From contig VBWC01000004.1 in assembly GCA_006218035.1 (NCBI GenBank), positions 221,537-285,536 on the forward strand: a stretch of 64,000 nucleotides of DNA, written 5' to 3'. The notes under the pieces were generated by a model. The model was not told the origin of the DNA, did not search any database, and saw nothing but the letters and a program-made list of their open reading frames with translations. The position numbers and the translations under genes are program-made. The DNA is from Gammaproteobacteria bacterium (GTDB lineage: Bacteria; Pseudomonadota; Gammaproteobacteria; VBWC01). Positions 9,761 through 64,000 of this stretch are shown here, piece after piece (the first letter of the stretch is position 1; each line of letters starts with the position of its first letter).

Positions 9761-12700
9761 TGTAAAGCTCCCCTTTTTCACTCTTAGAGTATCGGGCCGG
9801 CATCAACTTACTTAAACCGGCAAAACTCTTCCGGACCCACTCATTGTAGATGCCGTTAGCGACGCGCCGGGCATTGATTTCGTGTATCTCGATCGCCTTT
9901 TCCTCAAACGGGAAGGCCTGCTCTTCAAGCAGCACATTGTATTGCTCAAGCTCTTCACCGCTCAGTTCCGGCGGCCGCTCCGACGCCATCAGGGATTTGC
10001 CGAATTCCTCGTAGATACTGGCGATCCAGTAGGTCGCCGCCGGCGTGACATCGGCCACTTCGTACTCCGCCGCCTGACCGAACGCCTGTAGCGCCGTTTC
10101 CATGGCCTTCTTCTTCGCTTCCAGGCTGGTCTTCAGCGGCATCGTCAGTTTAATACTGTTAAATGGTTCGATAGTGATGGCGGCCAGCTCATAAGCGGCA
10201 CTTGCCGCGAGATAGCGTGTCCGGTCGGTGCGCTGTGTACCACCCTCCTTGTCGGCCTTGATGATCTCCTGTAACCAGCGATGATATTCGTCGGCCTGGC
10301 CGGCTTTTTTGTAATGGTCCGCCAGCCGATGGCGCGCCTCCGTCGCCGGCTCCAGCGGCGTCGGGAAACGGTTGAGATAGGTGTTCAACGCGGTAATGGC
10401 TTCCGCGTCCCGGCCGGCCTTCTGGTACAGCTCTACCGCCTGCCAGCTCGCCTCGCGCTGCAGGTCGGGGTTCGTACCGTGGAACGAAATCGACGAGAAC
10501 TCTCCGGCCGCCTTGTCCGTTTGATTGGTTTCCGTGTAGGCGACTGCCAGCTTGGTCGTGACGTTCTCCTGCAATTCATGCGTCGGATAGCGCCGGCGGA
10601 AATCCTCAAGCACCGCAATTGCGCCCTTCCAGTCTTTCTTGGCGAGTAACGCGTTGGCGGCATCGAAATCCGCGTTTACGCGCACTGAAGACGTCGGTGC
10701 CGCCTGACCGACGCGCAGGAAGTGCGCAATCGCACTTTCGAGGTCACCAATGGCATTGGCCGCCTCGGCCTGGCGATAGATCGACAAGGCATACTGCTCA
10801 ACGGTCTTTTGATAGGCCGGATCGCTCGCCGGCACGAACCCCAGCAACTGCTGGTAGGATGACTCGGCCTTCGGGAAATCCTTGTTCTCGAACGCCGTGT
10901 GCGCAATGATCGTCCATGCCTCGCGCCGCGCTTCCGTGTCCTGCGGCGTGGTCAACACCAGTATACGTTCCGCCACTTCCGCCGAACGTCCCAGCTCGTC
11001 CATCGAGAACAATTCCTGGGTCGCCTTGGTCATCGCCCCGGGGACGCGCGCGTCCTTGGGAAAGTGCTCGGCAAAGCGGATAGTGCCATCAACCATCGCG
11101 AGGCGGACTTTACGCTGTTGCGGTCCCTGCGCGCCCTGTGTCTCGCGTTGCAGGGAAACCAGCCCGGCGTAGGCGGCATCGGCGGCCTTGCCGTGTGGCG
11201 GGTAGTCATACGCGGTTCTATCGTATTCTTGAGCAGCGAGCTCGTGCTGTCCCGTTTCGGTGTAGATATCCGCAAGCAGGTAATTGATCTCCCCGGTCTT
11301 CGGCTCGCCGGGGAAGCTGTGGACATAGGACTGGTACCAGCCGGCCGCCGCCGTGTACGCTTCGGCATCCCGGGTCTTCTGCGCCGTGGCGTGGTAGTAG
11401 CGGCCGAGTTCTTCAATAATCTCGCGCAGACGCGGCCGGATCTTGTCCTGGACTTCCGGGCCATAACTCAACCACGCGACGCTGCCAACCTCGTTGGCCT
11501 TGGCAAATTCAGTCTTTGCCTCAAGCAGCAGCGCCTTGTATCCCGCCTGCCGGTAGGCATCCATGACCTTCAGATGAAAAAACGGCGCCTGCGGGTGCCC
11601 CGGATACAGGTTTGCAAACGTGCGCAGCGTTTCGGTGGCATCGGCAACGCGGTCCTTCTCAAGATAATAATCGGCCAGAGCCTCGTAGGCGCGCACCTGA
11701 TAGGTACGATTACCCATTTCAGAGAAGTACTTCGCCAGCGAATTCACCCCATCCAGATGCGATACGCTCAGACTGACGGCGCGGAAGATATCATCGGCAA
11801 GCTCCTTGTCGCCGCGCGACAGCTCGATGGGTTTCTCGCCGACACGCCAGGTCCGCGCATCGCCCAGTTTGCGATCGAGCAACTGAAAGAAGACCTTGAT
11901 CCCGTCGTCGTAACGGCCTTGCTTGTACATCGCCCAACCGAACTTATACAGCGCCTTTTCGTAAAACGCTGAAAACTCGCCCTTGGTGACGACACCCCGG
12001 TACTCCTTCTCGGCATCCGCGTAGCGACCCTTGGCAAAATAATTCTCGCCAAGACGGAAATGAACCTCTTCTGCGTAAATGCTGGCGGGATAATCCGTCC
12101 CGAGCTTCTCCAGCCACTCGATCGCCTTGGCCGATTCACCTTTCAGGTCGAATATCTTGGCAAGCTGATAATAGACGTGATCGTTGCCGGGACCGCGCGG
12201 ATTGGCCTTCAGGATCGTATCGTACAGCTCCATAATCTGACCGAAGCTGGCGGTCGGCGAGACATCCTTGGTCGCGATGCCTGGCTCGGCACGCTCGCTC
12301 TTGATCATCTCCAGGTCGGCGAGCCGCCGGATTACCGAGCCGTTCTGCGGGTGATGGATGCCCAGCCCGAGAAAGATACGGTAGTTCTCGATCGCCCTTT
12401 CCATATTATTTGTTTTGGAACCGGCGATCGCCCCTTCTGCGGCGGCCGGCGCGGGAGTCCCGCTTTCCTGACGAATAAACTGCGAGTCATAGCCCTGCGC
12501 CACTGCCAGTCGCGCGAATCCCAGATACTGCCTCAGCCTATCCTTGTCCTGATTCAGCGACGTAATGGAGAGGTCGCGAATATACTCCTTATGAATTTCA
12601 GCCAGCGAATCGACTTCGACCAGCAGTTGATCGATGCGATCGTGAAACGCGTCGAGCTGTTGCTTCAGCGCATCAAATTTCTTGCGCGCCTGCAACACGT

Positions 12701-51008: not shown

Positions 51009-51374
51009 TCATGCCAGCAGCTCGGTGTCGGCGTCTGCGTAGGGCGGCGCGGAACAGCACAGCAGGCGCAAGACCTCTGTACCGGTATTGGCAATCGCAT
51101 GTGGCGTGCCCGGCGGTATGCAGATCGTATCGCCGACAGTGACCGCAAAGGTGTCATGGTCGAGAAACATCCGGCCCTCGCCGGCGACGATGTAATACAA
51201 CTCCTCGCTGCGCGCGTGGCGGTGCAACGCGGTTCGGGTTCCGGGCGGCACGGTCGCTTCGGCCAGGCTCTGGCGGGCGTTGCCATGACGAACGGGATGC
51301 ATCAGCTCGCGGATGATCGAGCCATCCTTGGTCAAAAAGGCCTGTACCTGGTCATATACGGTCACGGTCGCCAC
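51009..51374 (-). CDS. Small cupin-fold protein (121 residues)
   Basis: The start is placed at a GTG at 51374 because AGGAGGGG precedes it; the open frame extends further, but without support. The cupin motif 1 has metal-binding histidines (TALHRHARSEELYYIVAGEG). Motif 2 reads GDTICIPPGTPHAIANTG. Such single-domain cupins act as sugar-phosphate isomerase-like enzymes or metal-dependent binding proteins; the substrate is not predictable. A 71-bp piece of this gene is repeated at 55048-55118. Confidence 0.82.
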   Translation of the reverse strand: MATVTVYDQVQAFLTKDGSIIRELMHPVRHGNARQSLAEATVPPGTRTALHRHARSEELYYIVAGEGRMFLDHDTFAVTVGDTICIPPGTPHAIANTGTEVLRLLCCSAPPYADADTELLA

Positions 51375-51703: not shown

Positions 51704-53995
51704 ATGACGGATACCGTCATTCGTAGTATTGCGTTGCCCGCAAATAACCACGCCGCGTCCACCGATGACGCTTCCGGCGCGCGCGGCAAGATCGACGATC
51801 AGCGCTGGGCCAGGCGACGGGAAATCTTTCTGACGTGGTGCGGTATCGTATTCACGCTCGCGACAGGCGCGCTGGTGATCGGCGATCAATATCCGGTATT
51901 GCTCGGGCAAATCGAGGCCGGCCGCTACGGCGACGCCGCCGCGCATGGCGCGTTTCTCGTGATCATCGCGTTTCTGGTCTACGGCAGTCTGGTCTATCAG
52001 ACGACGCGTCTCGGTTACATCAAGCGCCGGCGCGCGCACCGGCCGGCAGCGCGCCACGAACTCGATGCGCTGTACCAGGAGACACCGCCGCTGGCGATAC
52101 TGGTGCCGTCCTATAAGGAAGAGCGCCGCACCATTCTGCAGACACTGATGTCCGCCGCATTGCAGGAGTATCCCAACCGGCGCGTGGTGCTGTTGATCGA
52201 CAATCAACCCGATCCGACATCGACCGAGGAGGCCGCGCTACTAGACGCGGCGCGAAAACTGCCCGCCGAACTGAACCGGATACTGGGCGCGCCCGCCCGC
52301 GTATTCAGTAGCGCATTTGCCGGCTTTACCGAACGTCAACAGCACGGCACGGTCAACGGCCAGACCGAACTGAAACGCCTCGCTGACCTGTGGCAGCAGG
52401 CGGCCGCATGGTTCGAACGCGCCGCCCGCGACTATCCCGTGCACGATCATACCGACCGCTTCTATGTCGCCGAGACACTGAGCGCGCGCGCCGACACCCA
52501 TCGTGCGCATGCGCGGGTGTTACGCGCCCGCATCGAGCTGGGGGTCGCGGCCGATGCCGACGAATTGCGGGTCGAGTACCAACGCCTCGCGGCGTTGTTC
52601 GCCTGCGAAGTCACCGCTTTCGAACGCAAGCGCTATCTGAACCTGTCGCACGAAGCGAACAAGGCGATGAATCTGAACAGCTACATCGGCCTGATCGGCA
52701 AGCATCTGCGGGAACGCCCGACCGAAGATGGACTGCTGCTGGAGAAAACCCACCGATATAACGCAGATCTTCACGTGCCGGATGCGAAGTATTTTATTAC
52801 GCTGGACGCGGACAGTCTGTTGCTGCCTGAATATGCGCCGCGTCTGGTTCACATGATGGAACAGGCAGGCAACAAGCGTCTCGCCGTCATTCAGACCCCG
52901 TACAGCGCCATTCCCGGCGCATCGAATCCCATCGAACGCATCGCCGGCGCAACGACGGACATTCAGTACATCATCCATCAGGGTTTCACGCGGCATAACG
53001 CCACGTACTGGGTCGGCGCCAATGCGCTGCTACGCCATGAAGCGCTGCTCGACATCGCGGAAAACGACACCGAGCGCGGTTTTCCGATACAGCGCTTTAT
53101 CCAGGACCGAACGGTTATCGAGGACACTGAGTCCAGTGTGGATCTGATTGCACGCGGCTGGCGGCTTTACAATTACCCCGAACGACTCGCTTATAGCGCC
53201 ACGCCACCGGACTTCGGATCGCTATTGATCCAGCGGCGCCGCTGGGCCAATGGCGGCCTGATCATCCTGCCAAAGCTGTTGCGGTTTCTTGCCGTGAAAC
53301 CGCAGCGCAAAATCGCCGAGGGATTTCTGCGGGTACACTACCTGGTATCTATCGCCGCGGTAAACATCGGCCTGCTGGCAATGCTCGCGTTTCCATTTAC
53401 CGACAGCGTGCACAGCGCGTGGCTGCCGCTAACGGCGCTGCCATACTTCCTTCTTTACGGTCGTGACTTGTTATTAAGCGATTATCGGGGCACTGACCTG
53501 TTGCGCGTCTATGCACTCAATCTGTTGCTGATCCCGGTAAACCTGGGTGGCGTACTCAAATCGGTGCAGCAGGCGTTCAACAAGAAAAAAATACCGTTCG
53601 GGCGCACGCCGAAGGTTCAGGGACGAACCGCAACGCCGGTATTCTATCTACTCATGATCTACGTGTTGCTGCTGTATTGGCTGATCGGCGCCGGTTTTGA
53701 TTTTGCTACCGGATACCGGGCACACGGTACTTTTGCGCTGGTCAACGCGGCTTTCCTGGCTGCCGCTATTGTGTCGTTTATCGGACTGCGCGCAAGCCGC
53801 GAGGACATCGTTGCCGACCTGCGCAGCCGGCAACGCACGGCAACACCGGTGGCGCCACAGGCGATTACGCACGAAGACCATCAAGTGGTCGCTTTCATGT
53901 TGCCGGTTGCCATCACCATTCGGGCTGACGATTACGCGGAATTGGTCGAAGTTGACACAGAGCGCAATGAGAGCGCACGCAAGTACGGCACCTGA
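51704..53995 (+). CDS. Membrane glycosyltransferase, family 2 (cellulose-synthase-like processive type)
   Basis: The 763-residue protein has two N-terminal membrane helices (about 44-64 and 84-104). The GT-A domain starts LAILVPSYKEERRTILQTLM. It contains DxD in FITLDADSLLLPEY, the acceptor-side EDTES and the processive-enzyme signature QRRRWANGG. Several C-terminal membrane helices follow (for example FYLLMIYVLLLYWLIGAGFD). The region between 200 and 300 is an unusually long helical insertion between the nucleotide-binding part and DxD. It probably polymerises and exports a beta-linked polysaccharide. The following gene is a polysaccharide deacetylase, which suggests an amino-sugar polymer (inference). 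Confidence 0.88.
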   Translation: MTDTVIRSIALPANNHAASTDDASGARGKIDDQRWARRREIFLTWCGIVFTLATGALVIGDQYPVLLGQIEAGRYGDAAAHGAFLVIIAFLVYGSLVYQTTRLGYIKRRRAHRPAARHELDALYQETPPLAILVPSYKEERRTILQTLMSAALQEYPNRRVVLLIDNQPDPTSTEEAALLDAARKLPAELNRILGAPARVFSSAFAGFTERQQHGTVNGQTELKRLADLWQQAAAWFERAARDYPVHDHTDRFYVAETLSARADTHRAHARVLRARIELGVAADADELRVEYQRLAALFACEVTAFERKRYLNLSHEANKAMNLNSYIGLIGKHLRERPTEDGLLLEKTHRYNADLHVPDAKYFITLDADSLLLPEYAPRLVHMMEQAGNKRLAVIQTPYSAIPGASNPIERIAGATTDIQYIIHQGFTRHNATYWVGANALLRHEALLDIAENDTERGFPIQRFIQDRTVIEDTESSVDLIARGWRLYNYPERLAYSATPPDFGSLLIQRRRWANGGLIILPKLLRFLAVKPQRKIAEGFLRVHYLVSIAAVNIGLLAMLAFPFTDSVHSAWLPLTALPYFLLYGRDLLLSDYRGTDLLRVYALNLLLIPVNLGGVLKSVQQAFNKKKIPFGRTPKVQGRTATPVFYLLMIYVLLLYWLIGAGFDFATGYRAHGTFALVNAAFLAAAIVSFIGLRASREDIVADLRSRQRTATPVAPQAITHEDHQVVAFMLPVAITIRADDYAELVEVDTERNESARKYGT

Positions 53996-54035
53996 GCGCA
54001 TGCCAGCCGCGGATGGAGTAAGCAGGAATATAGAC

Positions 54036-55025
54036 ATGATCCCGACATCGTGCGCGCGTTTCGGGGCAACCAAAACGATCATTGCGCTGATACTTGCGGG
54101 TATGTGGTCACCGCTGGTGGCCGCGCCAGCCACAGAGCCATCATCGCATGCCCGCGTTTTTCTGACATTCGATGACGGCCCTATCGACGTGACGTTGAAC
54201 GTACTTGAGGTGCTGCGGCGCCACCATATCAAGGCAACATTCTTTGTGAATGGCATTCATCTGACCGGACAGGGCGGGGAAAATGAGACCCGCTCGGCAG
54301 AGGCGTTGCGCCGCATAATCGCCGATGGACACGTGTTGGGCGATCATAGTTTCGATCATATGAGGCATAACAGCACGACGGGCATCGCATCGTCCGTCGA
54401 CACCTACCGCGACATGACCAGCGATCTACGCTATTTCGTGCCCGAGAATCGCGCTATCGTGAACGCGGCACTCGGCGAGCTCGCCGCCCGACCGAATAAT
54501 CAGGTCGCCGGCATGGCCCGATTGCCGTATACCAACACCTGGATATTGCCGGGATACCAGGCGGTCTGCGGTATCTGCACCACCGACAGCGATGCGCCAG
54601 CGCATGCGGACCAGACACCGGCGAGCGGATTAAGCGCGACGCGCTCGGACGGCATCGCCACCCGGATTGCCGAAACACTGTTTCACGAGTACGGCATGAC
54701 GATTTTCGGCTGGGATATCCACTGGCAGCCGGCGAACTGGCAAGGGCCCGCATCAAGTGAAACGCTGGAACCGGCGATGTCGCTGGCCGGTCGCATCAAT
54801 GCGCTGATTGACCGGCCACCGTGCGCATCGGACCATACCGGCGACAGCATACGATGTCAGCACCTGCCACGCTTCAACAAGGTCGTGGTGCTGACCCATG
54901 ACTTTCTGTTCGAAAACAGCGCACGCGGCCGCGGCGCGGATATCAATATTCCGCAACTCGAACAGTTGATCCGCACGCTACAGGCAAGTGGCTATCGCTT
55001 TGACACCTTGGATCGCTATTTTTGA
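54036..55025 (+). CDS. Exported polysaccharide deacetylase (NodB homology domain)
   Basis: The 329-residue protein starts at 54036 with AGGA upstream; the longer open frame overlaps the glycosyltransferase gene and is rejected. A signal or anchor segment (TIIALILAGMWSPLVAAPA) precedes the NodB domain. Its motif 1 is FLTFDDGP and motif 2 GDHSFDH, the metal-binding Asp and two His. The middle is enlarged with several cysteines (AVCGICTTD, PPCASDH, IRCQH), atypical for the family and perhaps disulfide-bonded. It lies 40 bp after the glycosyltransferase and would trim N-acetyl groups of its product. Confidence 0.88.
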   Translation: MIPTSCARFGATKTIIALILAGMWSPLVAAPATEPSSHARVFLTFDDGPIDVTLNVLEVLRRHHIKATFFVNGIHLTGQGGENETRSAEALRRIIADGHVLGDHSFDHMRHNSTTGIASSVDTYRDMTSDLRYFVPENRAIVNAALGELAARPNNQVAGMARLPYTNTWILPGYQAVCGICTTDSDAPAHADQTPASGLSATRSDGIATRIAETLFHEYGMTIFGWDIHWQPANWQGPASSETLEPAMSLAGRINALIDRPPCASDHTGDSIRCQHLPRFNKVVVLTHDFLFENSARGRGADINIPQLEQLIRTLQASGYRFDTLDRYF

Positions 55026-55047: not shown

Positions 55048-55118
55048 AGATGGTATCGCCGACAGTGACTGCAAAGGCGTCATGGTCGAGAAACATCCGG
55101 CCCTCGCCTGCGACGATG
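55048..55118 (-). pseudogene. 71-bp duplicated fragment of the cupin gene
   Basis: These bases repeat 51122-51192, inside the cupin gene, in the same orientation with four mismatches in 71 (67/71 by eye). Neither flank continues the similarity. The two copies bracket the glycosyltransferase-deacetylase pair. Confidence 0.75.
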
Positions 55119-55315: not shown

Positions 55316-55600
55316 TCAGGGGATCACCACCGAGGGCCAGGCCGGCGCGGGATCGGCGCAGAAGGGATCGCCGCCACACGGATTTTGTACCGGATCCAGT
55401 ATGCCGCCGTTGAGAAATCTAACACCGCCATGATTCGCGCCACTACCATTAAAATAGGTGTAGAACCCTTTCTGGTAGATTGGATAATCACCAAATACCT
55501 TATTACCGTTGCCTCCCTGAAGATTATATCGATCGTGACAGGCCTGACAGGGTGAGCCGGTTTCTGTCCATCCCGCTCCCTCCGTAAAAATATACCGACC
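55316..55600 (-). pseudogene. C-terminal fragment of a cytochrome c-like protein
   Basis: The reverse strand reads GRYIFTEGAGWTETGSPCQACHDRYN in one frame, with a CxxCH haem site (shown here as PCQACHD), and continues through YPIYQKGFYTYFNGSGANHG to a TGA at 55316. The N-terminal part and start are missing: the frame runs directly into the transposase fragment at about 55600. It looks like a gene cut by the insertion sequence and is not expected to be functional. Confidence 0.65.
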
Positions 55601-55892
55601 CGCGCTTATCAATCAGCGTTTGCTCGAGCTTTTGCTGGGTGGCGGCCAGCTCCTCTTCAAGTTCGCGGATACGGCGAACCTGCTCGATCGAGACGCCTTC
55701 GGTCTCAGCGATGGTCTCGATGCGCGCCATCCGCTCGCGGCGTTCGAGCTGCACGCGCCATTTGTAGATCTGGCCACGTACCAGCCCTTCACGTCTGGCC
55801 AGATCGTCTGCCGGAATTATCCCGGCGAGATACTCCTGCACGATACGGCGTTTTTTATCATCGAGGTCATAGTGGTGTCGTCGCTTCTTCAT
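55600..55892 (-). mobile_element. Insertion-sequence remnant: IS3-type orfA-like helix-turn-helix transposase, 3' truncated
   Basis: The frame starts at an ATG at 55892 with AAAGGAG upstream. It encodes MKKRRHHYDLDDKKRRIVQE, a helix-turn-helix of orfA type (ADDLARREGLVRGQIYKWR), then a leucine-zipper-like coil (RELEEELAATQQKLEQTLI). After about 95 residues the reading passes into the cytochrome frame. No orfB with a DDE domain is present. The partial element shows past transposition and deletion at this junction. Confidence 0.7.
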
Positions 55893-56384
55893 GCCGGCTT
55901 CTCCTTTCAATCAACCACAGGGAAAAGCCGGTTCGGGCTTTACGCGATAGGCTCAGGCACTCCAGTTAACCGCCCGCAGTCCAGTGGCTGCGATAAGAGC
56001 CAACCCATATTTAGGAAATCTCTGATAGTGACTAAGTACGTACAGCGCGGGTGGATCAAGCCTATGGGGCGACAGGTGACTGTCGACATACCTTACACAT
56101 TCATCCCGGCGACCGCTTCGGCGAAGACCGGACGCTATCTGCCTGACTGATTATTCGATACAATTACGGAAGGGAATGGTTCTTGCTTGATACAAGGATG
56201 TGAGCTCACCGCATTTGCATGAGATCAGCAAGGGTGGGGAGAGCGCGTCTTGTCTTGATGCTCTCCGTAATATTAGTCCAAACCAATAAGACATTGCTTC
56301 TGAACCGGATGCCGCGGGTTATCCCGCGCATCAGGCTCATCAGAACAAATGTTTTTTCGATTCCACGTGATTTGGGAGATCGAC
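55893..56384. other. Non-coding spacer between IS remnant and small exported protein gene
   Basis: About 490 bp. TTTAGGAAATCTCTGATAGTG near 56010 vaguely recalls the terminal repeat of the MITE at 34149, but not closely enough to call. AT-rich sequence lies near 56150-56170. A GGGAG ribosome binding site lies before the ATG at 56385. No other gene was recognised. Confidence 0.35.
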
Positions 56385-56657
56385 ATGAAGAAAATATTCG
56401 CTGTTATTGCCATTAGTGCGATGGGGTTGGCTGGTACCACCCATGCCGGTAATTCATTCGGAAATGACCCGACGGTTCATACGCCAGGAACCGGGATCGG
56501 CTTTGCCAATGGCCCCGGGAACAACAATGGCCTGGGTCTTGGTCAGATCGTGCCAAAGCCTGAAAAACCTGCCGTGGATAAACTGCCGAGCCCGCGCCCG
56601 CCGAAAGAACCCGGCACCAATAACGGAAATCACCTCGGCCTGGGTCAGGTCCCGTAG
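56385..56657 (+). CDS. Small exported Gly/Asn/Pro-rich protein (90 residues)
   Basis: The ATG at 56385 has GGGAG 8 bp upstream and gives a signal peptide (MKKIFAVIAISAMGLAGTTH, then AG). The mature part of about 68 residues has low complexity, with two related segments: GNNNGLGLGQIVPKP and NNGNHLGLGQVP, separated by a Pro/Lys-rich linker. No family is recognised. It lies just upstream of two larger exported proteins and is closed by a strong terminator. Confidence 0.72.
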   Translation: MKKIFAVIAISAMGLAGTTHAGNSFGNDPTVHTPGTGIGFANGPGNNNGLGLGQIVPKPEKPAVDKLPSPRPPKEPGTNNGNHLGLGQVP

Positions 56658-56675
56658 CGATCTTCGTGAAAACAA

Positions 56676-56715
56676 TAATAAGCACAGGAAGAATCTGTCC
56701 TTCCTGTGCTTATTA
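56676..56715 (+). terminator. Strong hairpin terminator after the 90-residue gene
   Basis: A perfect 16-bp stem, TAATAAGCACAGGAAG with CTTCCTGTGCTTATTA, surrounds an 8-base loop. A T run (ATCTTTTTGC) follows about 15 bases later. It separates the small gene from the next. Confidence 0.75.
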
Positions 56716-56814
56716 GTCGAAGTGTCATCTTTTTGCTTATCGGCGCCATATGCACTGGTTGACTGACAACAGACCGGAGATACCTGCAGCTTTACCAAAC
56801 GCCAGGTTTTTATT

Positions 56815-57786
56815 TTGAAATATATAGTAACGCCACTGCTAGTTTTGCTTTGTCTTTTTACCGGGGCCAGTTTTGCCGCGCCGACACCGTCAAGCCTGAC
56901 GCTGGATTTCCAGCCGCAGCCGGGCGCGAAGCTGTTCGCCGCCTGCGGTGTCGGTAGCATCCGTGTCGGTGAAGGCGCCAAGGGCAACAGCATGTGCGAC
57001 GACAACCAGGGCGGACCGGGAACCGGCAAGGAGATCCGTAACCACGTCGGCTATATTGCGGGCCAATCCTTGTACCTGCAGGAAACCGATGGCGACATCT
57101 GGCATCAGGTCATCCTCGAACCCAAGGACAATTTCTCCATGGAGGTGTTCATCAACACCAGCCACGGCACGGCGGGTTTGAGTAATGCGCGCGAAATGAG
57201 CGGTGGCAAGAACGAAGAGCACTATCAACCGCTGATACACAACATCGAAAAGAACGGTACCGCCACCGGCGATCCGACCAAGGTCATGTTCCGCATGAAA
57301 ATCGACGACGGCGGCATGACACAGGACATGATCAAGGACAAATTTGACCGCAAACCGACGATCATCCAGACCACCAGCGGCCAGAGTATGAACGCGCGCT
57401 TCGAAATGGACATGCGGAACAGTACGTATTACGACATGAATACGCCGGCGACGATCGTCAATACGCTGTCGCTGGATCTGCCGAACATTTCGCCGCAGGA
57501 CGCGCCATTCTTCGATCCGGCGAATCTGCAGTTCGACATGGCGAAAAATATCGACAAGTCGGTGGTGACCGGCGGCCGTTTCAAAATCTCCGGCTGGGCG
57601 GATGACGGTAAGAACCCGAACTATACCTACGTCGGCGGCACGTTCGATCACATCAATCAGCCGTGGCTGAAATTCTGGCACGGCTCCATATATTGGCAGC
57701 CAGGCGATCCGTACCCGGACCCGACTGGAAAATTTGGTGGCGACGGCGCGGACGACGGCAGTTGCAAGCAGTTCGACAGCTGCTGA
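56815..57786 (+). CDS. Exported protein of unrecognised family, member 1 (323 residues)
   Basis: The TTG start at 56815 gives a clean signal peptide (KYIVTPLLVLLCLFTGASFA). The mature protein is soluble, beta-rich and Asp/Gly/Asn-rich. It is homologous to the gene at 58226. Shared blocks in order are L.F.P...G...FACG, WHQVILEPKD, GGKNEEHYQPLIHN, a KDKFD segment, FEMDMRNSTYYDMNTPA and PWLKFWHGSIYWQPGDPYP. It contains few cysteines, two of them near the C-terminus (CKQFDSC). No catalytic motif is evident. It lies between two terminator or relic regions and so is probably its own transcript. Confidence 0.8.
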   Translation: MKYIVTPLLVLLCLFTGASFAAPTPSSLTLDFQPQPGAKLFAACGVGSIRVGEGAKGNSMCDDNQGGPGTGKEIRNHVGYIAGQSLYLQETDGDIWHQVILEPKDNFSMEVFINTSHGTAGLSNAREMSGGKNEEHYQPLIHNIEKNGTATGDPTKVMFRMKIDDGGMTQDMIKDKFDRKPTIIQTTSGQSMNARFEMDMRNSTYYDMNTPATIVNTLSLDLPNISPQDAPFFDPANLQFDMAKNIDKSVVTGGRFKISGWADDGKNPNYTYVGGTFDHINQPWLKFWHGSIYWQPGDPYPDPTGKFGGDGADDGSCKQFDSC

Positions 57787-57835
57787 TAACCCGGTTCCAC
57801 CCGATTTCAGTACCGTTTGTTAGCCAAATAACCGC

Positions 57836-57943
57836 TTCGCATAACGCTTGTGGGCTAATTCGGCCAGCGTCCTATCACCCGGCGGTAAACGCCACCTTGG
57901 CTTTAAACTCCGTTGCGCGGTTACGTCGGATCTTCTGCTCATG
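57836..57943 (-). pseudogene. IS3-family orfA relic with frameshift
   Basis: The reverse strand reads KIRRNRATEFKAKVAF and then, one frame away, GDRTLAELAHKRYA. Together they match the start of IS3/IS911-type OrfA proteins (RRxxxxEFKAKVAL...GEKTLAELAxKY). Stops and a frame change between the pieces show it is dead. It lies between the two members of the exported protein family. Confidence 0.65.
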
Positions 57944-58225
57944 ATTCTCGTCTATCAGGCGCTACCGGCGCCTGTGTGAAGCAGTTTACCCACTGATCGG
58001 CTTGCTCAATTTTCCGGCCAAACCACCGATAACTCTAACGGTGCTGGAAGTTTTATTGGTGCCGGTGGCCGCCCACACTTTATCTATAGGAATACCAATT
58101 GGTTAGGATGACCGCCCGGCTGACAGACCGGACTCGGTCAGCCCTGTCTGTTTTCAACCTGTGGCGACACCGGCACCACCTAGCGCTGTTACTGGCGTGC
58201 AGGTAATTTCAGGGGGTAGCTGTCG
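57944..58225. other. Non-coding spacer upstream of family member 2
   Basis: About 280 bp, without any recognised gene. It probably holds the rest of the decayed insertion sequence and the promoter of the gene at 58226. Confidence 0.3.
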
Positions 58226-59332
58226 GTGAGCAGTATCGCGCGCCATATATCTGCGATTCTATTAACGATTCTATGCGTGGGCACCCAGGGCATGGCCACG
58301 GCTGCAGGCTTTGGCGAACAGTTTGGCCTGAATTTCGAGCCCATCGCCGACCGCAACGGCGGAGAAATTTTCTTCGCCTGTGGTTACCCCGGCCTCGCCA
58401 ACCAATCCAATCAGGATCCGGCCAATGCCTGCGGCGAGGCGATGGGCGGCTCCGGCGCTTCCGACGGCAAACCGCACCCGGGCTGGCCGGACGGCGATGC
58501 CTGGCCCTATCTCGTCGAAACCTGGGGCAGTGGTGACACTGGCTACTGGCACCAGATCATCGGCGATCCGGATCTCGGCTGGGTGCAGGAGGTCTACATC
58601 CACGGTCCCGGCCAAAACGTCGGCAGTACGCAGGGTGGCATACGTTCGCCCAGTGACGGCAAGAACGACGGACGGTTCCAGCCGCTCGCGCATGAATCCG
58701 AGACACCGGCCATGACCGGCAACGGGACCGGAAATCCGACAATGATCGCGATCCGGCAGTACATCAACGATACCGATGCCAACGGCACCAACATGGAACT
58801 GAACTTCGTCAAGGACAAGTTCGACGTCAGCGGGAATTACAAGCGGTTTCTCTACAAGCCGCAGATTACCCAAACGGTGACCGTGCCCGGCCAGTTGCGG
58901 ACCGAGTTCGACGTCGACATGTCGAACTCGAAATACACCGAGGACAACAAAGCACCGCAAAAATTTGTGATGCGTCAATACAATCTGGACATGGCCAATC
59001 CGGCCAACCCGGTCCCGCCAGAGACCTATGAACGCTCGCCCTTCATGAGCCAGCTGACCATCGAGCCCCTGTCCGGCAGTCCGGCGTTCCTGTTTGACCC
59101 GACGACGGCGCCACCACCGCCTGCGCCCGGTCTGCCGCCGGTGCTACCGACCCAGGACGTCCGCGTCACGGCCGGAAAATATCTATGGACGGGCGGGCTC
59201 ACCGCGAGCGGCGGTTACGGCGATGTCTATGTCTACTCCGGGGGCGCCGGGTTCAACGTGCTAACCGTTCCGTGGCGCAAGTTCTGGGAAGGTAACTGCC
59301 CGGAATGGTGCGCCGACGATCCATATCCATAG
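58226..59332 (+). CDS. Exported protein of unrecognised family, member 2 (368 residues)
   Basis: The GTG start gives a signal peptide (SSIARHISAILLTILCVGTQ, cleavage near ATA or AAG). The mature part is beta-rich and rich in Gly, Pro, Asn and Asp. It shares ordered blocks with the 56815 protein: F.P..DRNGGEIFFACG, YWHQIIGDPD, DGKNDGRFQPLAHE, NFVKDKFDVSGN, RTEFDVDMSNSKYTEDNKAP and VPWRKFWEGN...DDPYP. It carries extra segments, including a Pro-rich PTTAPPPPAPGLPPVLP loop. It is followed after 22 bp by the giant modular protein, so the two are likely co-transcribed. Confidence 0.82.
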   Translation: MSSIARHISAILLTILCVGTQGMATAAGFGEQFGLNFEPIADRNGGEIFFACGYPGLANQSNQDPANACGEAMGGSGASDGKPHPGWPDGDAWPYLVETWGSGDTGYWHQIIGDPDLGWVQEVYIHGPGQNVGSTQGGIRSPSDGKNDGRFQPLAHESETPAMTGNGTGNPTMIAIRQYINDTDANGTNMELNFVKDKFDVSGNYKRFLYKPQITQTVTVPGQLRTEFDVDMSNSKYTEDNKAPQKFVMRQYNLDMANPANPVPPETYERSPFMSQLTIEPLSGSPAFLFDPTTAPPPPAPGLPPVLPTQDVRVTAGKYLWTGGLTASGGYGDVYVYSGGAGFNVLTVPWRKFWEGNCPEWCADDPYP

Positions 59333-59354
59333 GGTTTTCGAGAACTGAATCGCA

Positions 59355-62300
59355 ATGCCTATCGGCAGTCGCAAAAATAGATACATGATCGCAGGCGTAG
59401 CGCTGATGCTCGCGGGCGCGCAAGCGCACGCCGCGAACGTATCGTCGGTCTCTGCGACGCCGAATCCGTTTAACGCGAACAACGCCGAAAGCACCACGAT
59501 CAGCTACACGCTCGGTAACAGCTCACTGCTGTGGCTGAAGATCTACAACGGCTCGGCGGTGCTGAAACGAAAACTCGTCGATCCCACCGGCTTCACCGGC
59601 ACCAACCGCACCGCCGGCGCCAAGTCCGAGATCTGGAACGGCAAGGATGACGCCAACGCCATACTGCCGGATGGCAACTATCCGTATCAGATCGATGCCG
59701 CGTTCTACAGCGCTGACTTCTCGCTCGGACAGAACGTGCATGACGTCGCCGTCGATCCGTCCAGCCCCAACGTCATGTGGTACGTCGGAAAAACGACCCC
59801 TTACGTCTACAAGTCGACTGACAGCGGCAGTAACTGGACCGGCGTTAGCGGCACCGGATGCTCGGCGAAGTGCTACGGTGTCGTGACAAACTCTACCGGG
59901 CAGTCGATTTATGTCGTCGAGGACGGCCAGGCAAGTCTCAACGTTTCTACCGACGGCGGTAATAACTGGGGGACATCAGCGGCCTTCCCTGGCAGTGACA
60001 CGAAGGTCGCTGACGTCGCGACCAGCAGTGATGGCACGATCATTTACGTCGTTGCCTATACGAACAATGCGATCTATAAGTCCGTCAACAGCGGCGGATC
60101 GTGGAGCACCTGCACCGCCACCGGCATGAGTCTCGGTGGCGCCGCGAGCGGCATCGGCACCAGCGCCGACGGCACGACCGTGATCGTCACCGACAGCTCG
60201 AATCACCGCGTATATAAATCCACCAATAGTTGCAGCAGCTTCAGTCTGATCAGCGGCATCACCAGCGGCACGACCGCCGGCCGGGTAAATTATCCGTACC
60301 AGGTCGCGATCCAGTCTGACGGCAAGTTCTGGGTATCCGAGCGCGATAACCACCGCATCCAGCAATTCGATTCCAGCGGTAACGTGCTGATGACCGTCGG
60401 CGGCACGGCGGCGGCGAGCGGCAACTATCAGTTCAACAGCGGTGCCTTCTATTTCGGTGTCGGCCTCGCGACGATATCCGGCCAGCCGTATATCGTCGTA
60501 GCCGACTACGGCAACACGCGCATCAAAAAACTCGGCTACGACAACTGGGCGTCCAGCACGCACTTGCAGATTGCTTCTGGCGGCGGCGCAACGACGACGG
60601 CAGCCGGCAGCGCGACAGCGTCTGCCGCCAGCGCCACATCGATCGGCGTGTCGATGCCGTACACCGACGACGGCAACACTAACAATACCTATACGGTGGA
60701 TTACAAACTGTCCGCCGCCGGCTCATGGACCAACTGGGTCACCGCCGCCGCGCACTCCACCAGCCCCTATACAACGACGATCACCGGTCTGACCAGCGGT
60801 CAGAGCTATGACGTGCGCATGACCTACAACGACGTCGACGGGGTCACCGGCACCAACCCGCAGACCGTCACCGGTATCGTCATGCCAAGCAACGCGACGG
60901 TAGCCGGCACCGCGACGGCCACGGGCGCGACAATGAGTTCGATCAGCGTGTCGATGCCCTATACCAGCGATACCAACAACAACAATACCTATACCGTCGA
61001 CTACAAGCTTTCCAGCGCGGGTTCGTGGACCAACTGGGTTACCGCCGCCGCGCATGCGGCAAGCCCCTACGCGACGACCATCACAGGCCTGACCATCGGT
61101 GAAACCTACGACGTGCGCACGACCTACAACGATGCCGATAGCGTTACCGGCACCAACCCGCAAACCGTTTCAAGCATCACCTTGCCCAGCGGAGTGTTCA
61201 ACGTCAGCAGTATTTCCATATCGCCGAACCCGTTCAATCCCGGCAATTCGGAAACGACGACCATCTCCTACAACCTGACCAACGCCGCATTACTGTGGAT
61301 GAAGATTTATAACAACGGCAGCGTACTTAAACGGACACTGGTAACACCCGGAAGCTACACCGCGACGAACAAGGCCGCCGGCGCCAATAGCTCTATCTGG
61401 AACGGAAAGAACGAAAGCAACGTGATCCAGCCCGACGGCCAGTATCCGCTGAAGATCGACGATGCCTTTTTCGTATCGCACTTCGCCACCCCCGGCAGCA
61501 ACCCACAGGATGTTGCCGTGGTGTCGTCGAACCCGAGCACTATCTGGATGACGGACAAGACATCGCCCTATGTCTTCAAATCGACCAATAGCGGTTCATC
61601 GTGGAGCGGCGTGTCGGGCACCGGAGCGTCCGCCAAGGACTACGGCATTGCGGTCAGCGCCGACGGCCAGCGTATCTATATTTCCGACGACGGCCAGTCC
61701 AGCCTCAACATGTCAACCAACGGCGGCAGCAGCTGGGCGACGTCGGGTACGTTTCCCGGCAGCGCGACCCAGATCTCCGACGTTGCCACCAGCGACAACG
61801 GCCTGATCGTCTATGCGTTGAACTACAACGCCGGCGTCGTCTACAAATCGATCAACGGCGGTACGGCATGGGGTACGTGCAGCAATCCGGGATACAGCCT
61901 CAGCGGTCCACGCGGCATCACCACTAACGCCGCCGGCACAACCGTGATGATCGCCGACAGCGGCAACAACAAAGTCTGGCTGGGTAGCGGCGGCGCGACC
62001 AACAGCAATACCGACTGCGGATTCTTCTTCGACTACTCGATCGCTGCCGGTACCGGCGCCGGCCAGCTGAGCTATCCTTACCAGGTCGAGATCCAGGAGG
62101 ATGGCAAGTTTTGGGTCAGTGAGCGCGATACGCATCGCATTCAGCAGTTCGACCCGAGCAGCCAGGTATTGATGACCATTGGCGGCAGCGCCAGCGGCAG
62201 CGGCAATTATCAGTTCAACAGCGGCGCGTCGTATTTCGGCATAGGCCTTGCCTCGATCAGCGGTCAGGCGCATATCTTCGTCGCCGACTACAACAACGCC

Positions 62301-64000
62301 CGTATCAAGAAGGTCGGTTACGACAACTGGTCATCGGGCAGTCCGCATATCACGATCGCCAGCGCGCCGCCGAATGCTCCCACCAGCGTCAGCGCAAGCG
62401 ATACCGCTTCCGACAACGGTGGTTCGGTGAGCCTGTCATGGACGGTGTCGTCATCGGCGGAAACAACTCATCAGCGCATCTACCGCAGCACCACGAGCGG
62501 CAGCGGTTACGCCTTGCTGGCCACGATCAACAACAACACGACCAACAGCTACGCCGACACGACCGCAACAACGGGGACGCCCTACTATTACGTGATCCGC
62601 GCCTGGAACGGATCACAGGAATCAGCGAATTCGAATCAGGCCAGCGCCACCGCCGCCGACAATATCGTGCCCAACGCGCCGACGGGCCTGGCAGCGACCG
62701 CTGGCAACGGCGAAGTCAATCTGTCGTGGACCGTTTCAAATTCAGCCGACACTTCCCAGCAAAGAATTTACCGCAGCACGACGGACGGCAGCGGCTATAC
62801 GTTGCTGACAACGATCAATAACAATACGGCTGCGACCTATCGCGACAGCACCGTCGTCAACGGAACGACCTACTATTACGTCATCCGCGCCTATGATGAT
62901 TCGCAGGAATCCGCCAATTCGGCGCAGGCAAGCGCCACGCCGTCGGCAAGCATCGTCAATGCGCCAACGAGTCTCCTCGCTGTCCCAGGTGACGCGCAGG
63001 TCAGCCTGTCCTGGACGGTATCGACGTCCGGCACCGTCTCACAACAAAGACTTTACCGCAGCACGACCAATGGCAGCGGATACGCGCTGCTGACAACGAT
63101 CAATAACAATACGACCAACAGCTACGTCGACAGCAGCAGCGTCAACGCCACAACCTACTATTACGTCATCCGTGCCTGGAACGGCACAGCGGAATCCGCT
63201 AATTCTAATCAGGCCAGTGCGACGCCGTCGGCGAACGCAGTGCCGGTCGCCGTCAATGGCGTGCTCTATCCGCTCAAGAACAGCACCGCGACCGGCACGC
63301 TGGTCGCAACTGATGGTGACAGTGACCCGTTGACCTACAGCATTGCCACCAATGGCTCACTCGGCACGGCAACGATCACCAACGCCGGCACCGGCACCTA
63401 CCAGTATGTCCCGAACACCAACGCAACCGGCGCCGACAGCTTCACGTTCCGCGTCAACGACGGCAAGGTGAACTCGAACACGGCGACGATCAGTGTAACG
63501 ATCACACCGCCCGTCACCGGCACGACGATAGTCAAGGGCGGCTGGAACATGATCTCGATCCCGACCAACCTGACCCAGAAATCCGATTTCTACACTATAC
63601 TGCTCGACGATATCGGCAGCCCGCCGTTCGTGTTCGGCTGGAACAGCGACCGCGTACCCGGCAGCTTTGCCGGCGCCCACGTCAGCGCCGCGAATGCGCA
63701 ACCGGGCAAGGGGTATCTGGTCTATTTCCCGAGCAACAGTATCGCAATCGATGATCAATTCAACGGTGAACATGTCGCGCAATGTGATGCGGTGAACTTC
63801 ACCGGGGTGCAGTGTGTCGACGTGCAGTTGCAGATTGGCGGCTCGATGATCGGCAATCCATACCCGGTTAACAAGGATCTGCTGCAGGCCGCGGACGTCA
63901 AGATCTGCAATGCCTCGCAAACGCCCGGATGCACCAGCGCGGGCGACTGGAAGACCTATAGTCAGGCCGTCACCAACGGTTGGATATCGAACATTATCTA
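59355..64000 (+). CDS. Giant modular exported protein, 3' end outside window (>1548 residues)
   Basis: The frame is open from an ATG at 59355 to the edge. A signal peptide (YMIAGVALMLAGAQAHA) is followed by a FlgD-like Ig domain (about 35-115: NPFNANNAESTTISYTLG, then EIWNGKDDANAILPDGNYPY) and an NHL/BNR-type beta propeller (about 128-402). Two Fn3-like repeats (412-612) come next. A second FlgD-Ig (615-709) and second propeller (715-992) are clearly duplicated from the first. Three near-identical Fn3 repeats (about 1001-1292, for example QRIYRSTTSGSGYALLATIN), a tandem-95/cadherin-like domain (1295-1389) and a domain starting GWNMISIPTNLTQ complete the visible part. It is probably a surface or secreted adhesive protein; FlgD-Ig domains often accompany secretion tails in other phyla (family knowledge). 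Confidence 0.88.
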   Translation, partial: MPIGSRKNRYMIAGVALMLAGAQAHAANVSSVSATPNPFNANNAESTTISYTLGNSSLLWLKIYNGSAVLKRKLVDPTGFTGTNRTAGAKSEIWNGKDDANAILPDGNYPYQIDAAFYSADFSLGQNVHDVAVDPSSPNVMWYVGKTTPYVYKSTDSGSNWTGVSGTGCSAKCYGVVTNSTGQSIYVVEDGQASLNVSTDGGNNWGTSAAFPGSDTKVADVATSSDGTIIYVVAYTNNAIYKSVNSGGSWSTCTATGMSLGGAASGIGTSADGTTVIVTDSSNHRVYKSTNSCSSFSLISGITSGTTAGRVNYPYQVAIQSDGKFWVSERDNHRIQQFDSSGNVLMTVGGTAAASGNYQFNSGAFYFGVGLATISGQPYIVVADYGNTRIKKLGYDNWASSTHLQIASGGGATTTAAGSATASAASATSIGVSMPYTDDGNTNNTYTVDYKLSAAGSWTNWVTAAAHSTSPYTTTITGLTSGQSYDVRMTYNDVDGVTGTNPQTVTGIVMPSNATVAGTATATGATMSSISVSMPYTSDTNNNNTYTVDYKLSSAGSWTNWVTAAAHAASPYATTITGLTIGETYDVRTTYNDADSVTGTNPQTVSSITLPSGVFNVSSISISPNPFNPGNSETTTISYNLTNAALLWMKIYNNGSVLKRTLVTPGSYTATNKAAGANSSIWNGKNESNVIQPDGQYPLKIDDAFFVSHFATPGSNPQDVAVVSSNPSTIWMTDKTSPYVFKSTNSGSSWSGVSGTGASAKDYGIAVSADGQRIYISDDGQSSLNMSTNGGSSWATSGTFPGSATQISDVATSDNGLIVYALNYNAGVVYKSINGGTAWGTCSNPGYSLSGPRGITTNAAGTTVMIADSGNNKVWLGSGGATNSNTDCGFFFDYSIAAGTGAGQLSYPYQVEIQEDGKFWVSERDTHRIQQFDPSSQVLMTIGGSASGSGNYQFNSGASYFGIGLASISGQAHIFVADYNNARIKKVGYDNWSSGSPHITIASAPPNAPTSVSASDTASDNGGSVSLSWTVSSSAETTHQRIYRSTTSGSGYALLATINNNTTNSYADTTATTGTPYYYVIRAWNGSQESANSNQASATAADNIVPNAPTGLAATAGNGEVNLSWTVSNSADTSQQRIYRSTTDGSGYTLLTTINNNTAATYRDSTVVNGTTYYYVIRAYDDSQESANSAQASATPSASIVNAPTSLLAVPGDAQVSLSWTVSTSGTVSQQRLYRSTTNGSGYALLTTINNNTTNSYVDSSSVNATTYYYVIRAWNGTAESANSNQASATPSANAVPVAVNGVLYPLKNSTATGTLVATDGDSDPLTYSIATNGSLGTATITNAGTGTYQYVPNTNATGADSFTFRVNDGKVNSNTATISVTITPPVTGTTIVKGGWNMISIPTNLTQKSDFYTILLDDIGSPPFVFGWNSDRVPGSFAGAHVSAANAQPGKGYLVYFPSNSIAIDDQFNGEHVAQCDAVNFTGVQCVDVQLQIGGSMIGNPYPVNKDLLQAADVKICNASQTPGCTSAGDWKTYSQAVTNGWISNII

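Follow-up and report, generated by a model that had tools for sequence, protein, structure and literature searches.

Two homologous exported proteins of 323 and 368 amino acids, encoded near the right-hand end of the window (the whole 64,000-nucleotide stretch analysed here, C47:221537-285536, from a genome of 3.0 Mb in 62 contigs), belong to a protein family that is real but unnamed, and for which the libraries searched contain neither a curated model nor a relative of known structure. The explanation that we favour, tentatively and with rather less than even confidence, is that both belong to a single secreted, beta-rich family located outside the cytoplasm, part of which serves as companions of large adhesin-like surface proteins. 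The evidence laid out below points to a surface-attachment module at this locus, not to a new secretion machine.

Gene order and history of the locus

The sequence-only reading had described four plus-strand genes for exported proteins, and open reading frames, hydrophobic N termini and A-x-A-like sites confirmed them at or very near that place. These genes encode a Gly/Asn/Pro-rich peptide of 90 amino acids with two GLGLGQ/LGLGQ-type repeats (56385-56657, +, ATG start); the 323-aa protein (56815-57786, +), with a TTG start that is the same in the sister species; the 368-aa protein (58226-59332, +, GTG start); and a giant protein (+) that begins at 59355 and runs through position 64000 past the edge of the window. 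Contig sequence placed the end of the giant open reading frame at C47:285672, 136 bases outside the window, giving a complete protein of 1593 aa. As judged from their sequences, all four N termini carry a hydrophobic stretch and an A-x-A-like site, and a home-made signal screen concurred for the 323-aa, 368-aa and giant proteins.

Sequence to the right of the window, where that reading had proposed looking for sorting genes, was found to encode a fifth exported protein 3' of the giant. This is a choice-of-anchor U protein (L005:8670-10685), which measures 691 aa from an upstream start in the table of open reading frames and 671 aa from the ATG in its overlap with the giant gene. The stop of the giant gene and the start of the 671-aa gene overlap by 4 bases (ATGA), and the 368-aa and giant genes are separated by 22 bases, so that the 368-aa, giant and 671-aa genes look like a single operon, with the 368-aa gene as its putative first member.

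At the matching site of the sister species (G001), the 90-aa and 323-aa genes are followed by the same cation-efflux gene, without the 368-aa/giant block, which means that the block of the 368-aa, giant and 671-aa genes was either gained here or lost in the sister. The 323-aa gene and the 90-aa peptide are best explained as a separate unit common to the sister species. A perfect, terminator-like 16-bp inverted repeat lies between the two (56676-56715, no strand assigned) and is kept in the sister species; the number of sites returned by a terminator scan was not above that in shuffled sequence. This repeat 3' of the 90-aa gene, the 440 bases that separate the 323-aa from the 368-aa gene and the presence of the first two genes alone in the sister led us to rule out a single transcription unit of all four genes. 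Among 56 genomes, the 90-aa peptide was found in its own genome and the sister species only (86.7% identity) and is therefore genus-specific. The proposal that the four genes form one system is not supported, given this genus-specific peptide with its inverted repeat, the sister locus with two of the genes and a family whose members are mostly solitary. What remains of the suggested surface structure is the three-gene module of the 368-aa, giant and 671-aa genes; the 90-aa peptide falls outside it, and the relevance of the neighbouring 323-aa gene is uncertain.

Measured against the sister species, dN/dS was 0.18 for the 323-aa and 0.32 for the 90-aa gene; values of 0.14-0.23 were obtained for the family member on contig C49 and, on contig C32, for the paralogous family, giant and anchor genes. 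These low values indicate purifying selection and argue that the genes common with the sister species are not chance open reading frames. A foreign base composition of the block was not seen (57-61% GC inside versus 52-65% around it). We also dropped the idea of mobile-element cargo, since the family had no match in the plasmid collection and no confirmed relative among viral contigs.

Several side observations concern the history of the region. A C-terminal remnant of another family member (55316-55612, -; profile match E 8e-11), 65% identical to the member of a biocathode MAG, adjoins an HTH_Tnp_1 transposase-like open reading frame (55524-55910, -) that seems to have cut it. Beyond the window, a degraded third paralogue of the 323-aa gene occupies L005:10702-11085 (-) and 11005-11075 (+), its 3' part inverted relative to its own tail. 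This right-hand remnant is only ~72-74% identical to the 323-aa gene of the sister species and is thus an old degraded paralogue, which ruled out a recent duplication or an element insertion bounded by 323-aa gene repeats. A glycosyltransferase (763 aa) and a polysaccharide deacetylase (51704-55025, +) separate a ferredoxin-reductase/cupin region from the 90-aa gene and are absent at the matching sister-species site. A 71-bp direct repeat with 94% identity (51122-51192 and 55048-55118) flanks this segment; together with the absence in the sister, it suggests an insertion in which a piece of the cupin gene was duplicated. Two more family copies in the same genome lie at G000:C49:29480-31542 (L062), one of them broken by a TGA; the sister shows one at the matching site.

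An unnamed family of exported proteins

BLASTP aligned the 323-aa and 368-aa proteins over nearly their full length (29% identity, 102 bits, E 3e-29), which establishes them as homologues, as the sequence-only reading had held. Its description of both as proteins of unknown function also agrees with our searches: neither protein matched a Pfam or NCBIfam family over its curated cut-off, and a PDB profile search with the family gave no match at E 1. Scanning 29 family members singly against the models yielded only isolated weak matches. Given that no model matched, an enzyme identity by homology was dropped.

Relatives of the 323-aa protein are divergent, mostly at 23-33% identity. By profile search, the family occurs in 23 of the 369 species genomes sampled from the Gammaproteobacteria; these 23 belong to nine GTDB families and carry one to six copies each. 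In a phylum-wide draw of 398 genomes, which held few of the nine family-bearing GTDB families, the family was present in its own genome only. The named family-bearing records are all MAGs, with isolate names that suggest groundwater, vent and biocathode origins.

Residues C44, C61, H97, P154, K174, K180, Q185, D199 and M200 (323-aa numbering) are invariant in an alignment of 29 members. An AlphaFold model of the 323-aa protein, which is only moderate overall (mean pLDDT 65, pTM 0.59) and mostly above 85 at residues 161-220, predicts about 11 strands arranged as a meander and hardly any helix past the signal peptide. The family is best read as Sec-exported, beta-rich proteins, probably held by one disulphide.

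Recurrence and probable anchoring of the three-gene module

The giant consists of two copies (57% identical) of a unit that joins a FlgD-Ig-like domain to an NHL/BNR propeller, together with fn3-like repeats, Big_9 and a C-terminal domain of 204 aa. It belongs to the broad kind of modular FlgD-Ig/NHL/fn3 surface proteins but differs from them in this C-terminal domain, which a search independent of the family located at exactly four loci in 94 genomes, all four adjoining family genes. The N-terminal domain of the 671-aa protein, with matches spanning residues 20-170, was found at four loci in the same number of genomes, and again all four adjoin family genes; adjacency was judged by coordinates from the family profile search. 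Two of the four loci are orthologous between the sister species, which leaves three independent ones, plus L049.

The L049 locus, from a MAG, has the same order of 368-like, giant and 671-like genes (54%, 55% and 45% identity, respectively) with small gaps. Two more loci, on another contig of the same genome (C32, L020) and on contig C16 of the sister species (L019), have a family gene 5' of a different giant with fn3 repeats, and then a 671-like protein; the C-terminal domain of both of these giants is the same as that of the giant in the window. In L026, a locus of a biocathode MAG, the family gene comes after a giant of smaller size and a short anchor protein. A tree of the family groups the 368-aa protein with the L049 copies, its nearest kin including one directly 5' of the giant's homologue in L049, and we therefore dropped the idea that the 368-aa gene is a recent tandem duplicate of the 323-aa gene. 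Absence of linkage in other genomes would have spoken against the sequence-only reading; instead, other genomes again place family genes next to the giant's C-terminal domain and the 671-aa anchor protein. Calling the 368-aa, giant and 671-aa genes a surface module is supported.

The 671-aa protein contains the choice-of-anchor U domain NF041766 (75 bits against a cut-off of 32), which was also above cut-off in L020, L049 and L048. It resembles other choice-of-anchor U proteins in this domain and differs from them in its N-terminal domain, found, among the 94 genomes, only at family-gene loci. Its C-terminal tail, APTSGGGALGPITLLLLLVPGLYLTRRYYR, reads as a glycine-rich run followed by a hydrophobic segment and, at the very end, basic residues, and the protein also has a signal peptide; a simple screen was positive. 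The protein thus shows the tripartite layout of GlyGly-CTERM tails (a Gly-rich motif, a transmembrane segment and a basic end, plus a signal peptide). The TIGR03501 model gave no match to the 671-aa protein at E 0.1 and none in its genome at E 0.01, and we accordingly call the tail GlyGly-CTERM-like, rather than a tested member of that class.

In published descriptions, GlyGly-CTERM proteins are linked to rhombosortase and to surface display that depends on the type II secretion system (T2SS) (PMC3237569, PMC6219818, PMC13393428). The locus is like GlyGly-CTERM/rhombosortase anchoring (PMC3237569, PMC6219818) in the layout of the 671-aa tail and in the rhombosortase encoded in the genome (G000:C32:150127-150585; 155.8 bits against a cut-off of 84). 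It is unlike that system in that the 671-aa tail does not reach TIGR03501 and that the family proteins and the giant are without such a tail. Rhombosortase was above cut-off in all 23 family-bearing genomes compared with 103 of 346 others (Fisher 4e-12), and in nine of nine family-bearing GTDB families compared with 61 of 173 (1.3e-4), both counts being uncorrected for phylogeny. The T2SS secretin GspD exceeded its cut-off in 21 of the 23 family-bearing genomes and was fragmentary in the other two; the GspD of the genome itself scored 619 bits against a cut-off of 351, with the T2SS judged from the secretin alone. The genome therefore combines Sec signals, as read from the sequence, with a T2SS, a combination that is necessary but not sufficient for a T2SS substrate.

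The sequence-only reading had recognised no known secretion, S-layer or pilus component. This stood for S-layer and pilin models, none of which was among the matches for any protein of the locus, but not for sorting: the choice-of-anchor U domain and GlyGly-CTERM-like tail past the window edge, with a rhombosortase in the genome, form a recognisable sorting element. Its suggestion of an extracellular matrix system gained no support, and nor did a secretion machine, an S-layer or a pilus.

Possible role of the family beside large exported proteins

Of the 66 family genes in the loci examined, 14 are followed in the same direction by a gene for a large exported soluble protein; for the other genes of these loci the figure is 17 of 391 (Fisher 2e-5). 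The count relies on the home-made signal screen, takes orthologous loci separately, carries no correction for phylogeny and includes one partner among the 14 that is itself a family member. The partners are of several kinds: FG-GAP/Calx-beta giants with GG tails in L035, its homologue L040 and L076, a choice-of-anchor U protein in L048, and a caspase-domain/Sel1 lipoprotein-like protein whose gene lies directly 3' of a family gene in L034 (L034:11069-13126, +). In L044 and the orthologous L043, L073 and L078, an exoprotein of two-partner secretion (TPS) and a ShlB-type transporter lie directly 3' of the family gene (domains shown for L044). In the family tree, one clade consists of the orthologous TPS loci and another of the L035/L040 pair, which suggests that subclades of the family tend to retain their partner type. 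The TPS lineage resembles two-partner secretion (TpsA/TpsB) in having a family gene directly 5' of these two genes; by contrast, the window locus is without TPS genes, and the family is no part of classical TPS systems. Separately, we observed four tandem family genes, three of them with long Ser/Thr/Gly-rich C-terminal tails (L021:9658-15844, -).

We directly observed the family, its export-signal-like N termini, the operon layout, the recurrence of the module, and genes for a rhombosortase and a T2SS secretin in every family-bearing genome of the sample. In the explanation that we favour, part of the family would act as small companions to large adhesin-like surface proteins. The 368-aa member would share its operon with a scaffold of 1593 aa, built of paired Ig/propeller units, fn3 and Big_9, and with the 671-aa protein, which may be anchored in the membrane through its choice-of-anchor U/GlyGly-CTERM-like tail. 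All three proteins would cross the outer membrane by means of the T2SS and meet at the cell surface, where the family protein may bind or cap the large protein; rhombosortase would trim the 671-aa protein. Against this explanation stand the unrelated types of partner and the lack of a large exported neighbour for most of the family genes. The majority are solitary and lie beside housekeeping genes (dnaG, metG, gpsA, mrp or similar), and the partnership is therefore not obligatory.

The main rival explanation, for which this solitary majority speaks, is an independent enzymatic or binding role. The family would then comprise independent secreted enzymes or binding proteins, acting for example on a surface- or mineral-associated substrate, and adjacency to giants would reflect only a common address of exported genes. 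The invariant polar residues H97, K174, K180, Q185 and D199, a set resembling that of a binding or active site, fit such a role, as does purifying selection. However, the gaps to large exported proteins are small in several lineages (often -3 to 54 bases) and the module recurs at four of four loci; we consider this role quite possible, if somewhat doubtful.

Family genes lie codirectionally 5' of giants that would leave by different exit routes (GlyGly-type, TPS and fn3 giants), an arrangement also expected if the proteins were periplasmic chaperones or escorts that hold large exoproteins competent for outer-membrane passage, rather than surface proteins. Yet many copies are solitary, no chaperone model matched, and the long Ser/Thr/Gly-rich tails in the L021 lineage are typical of exposed proteins, which together make an escort function improbable. 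Chance neighbouring of unrelated exported genes with no common function could account for the sister locus, where the 90-aa and 323-aa genes occur without the block, and for flanking remnants that mark a region gaining and losing genes, but is the least plausible explanation, because the 368-giant-anchor order recurs across MAGs, the tree joins the 368-aa protein with L049 copies adjoining the same giant, and codirectional large exported neighbours are enriched.

Returning to companionship with large adhesins, a bolder form of it, which we rate as unlikely though worth stating, is that the family constitutes an undescribed class of adhesin companions in uncultured Gammaproteobacteria with T2SS and rhombosortase, that the 368-giant-anchor genes encode a three-part attachment device and that the giant carries a new C-terminal docking domain. 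The family reaches up to six copies per genome in nine GTDB families of environmental Gammaproteobacteria, including groundwater, vent and biocathode MAGs. If it does partner large adhesins, the attachment of these uncultured bacteria to minerals, electrodes or one another would be explained in part, and the 368-aa, giant and 671-aa genes would provide a defined operon in which this idea can be tested.
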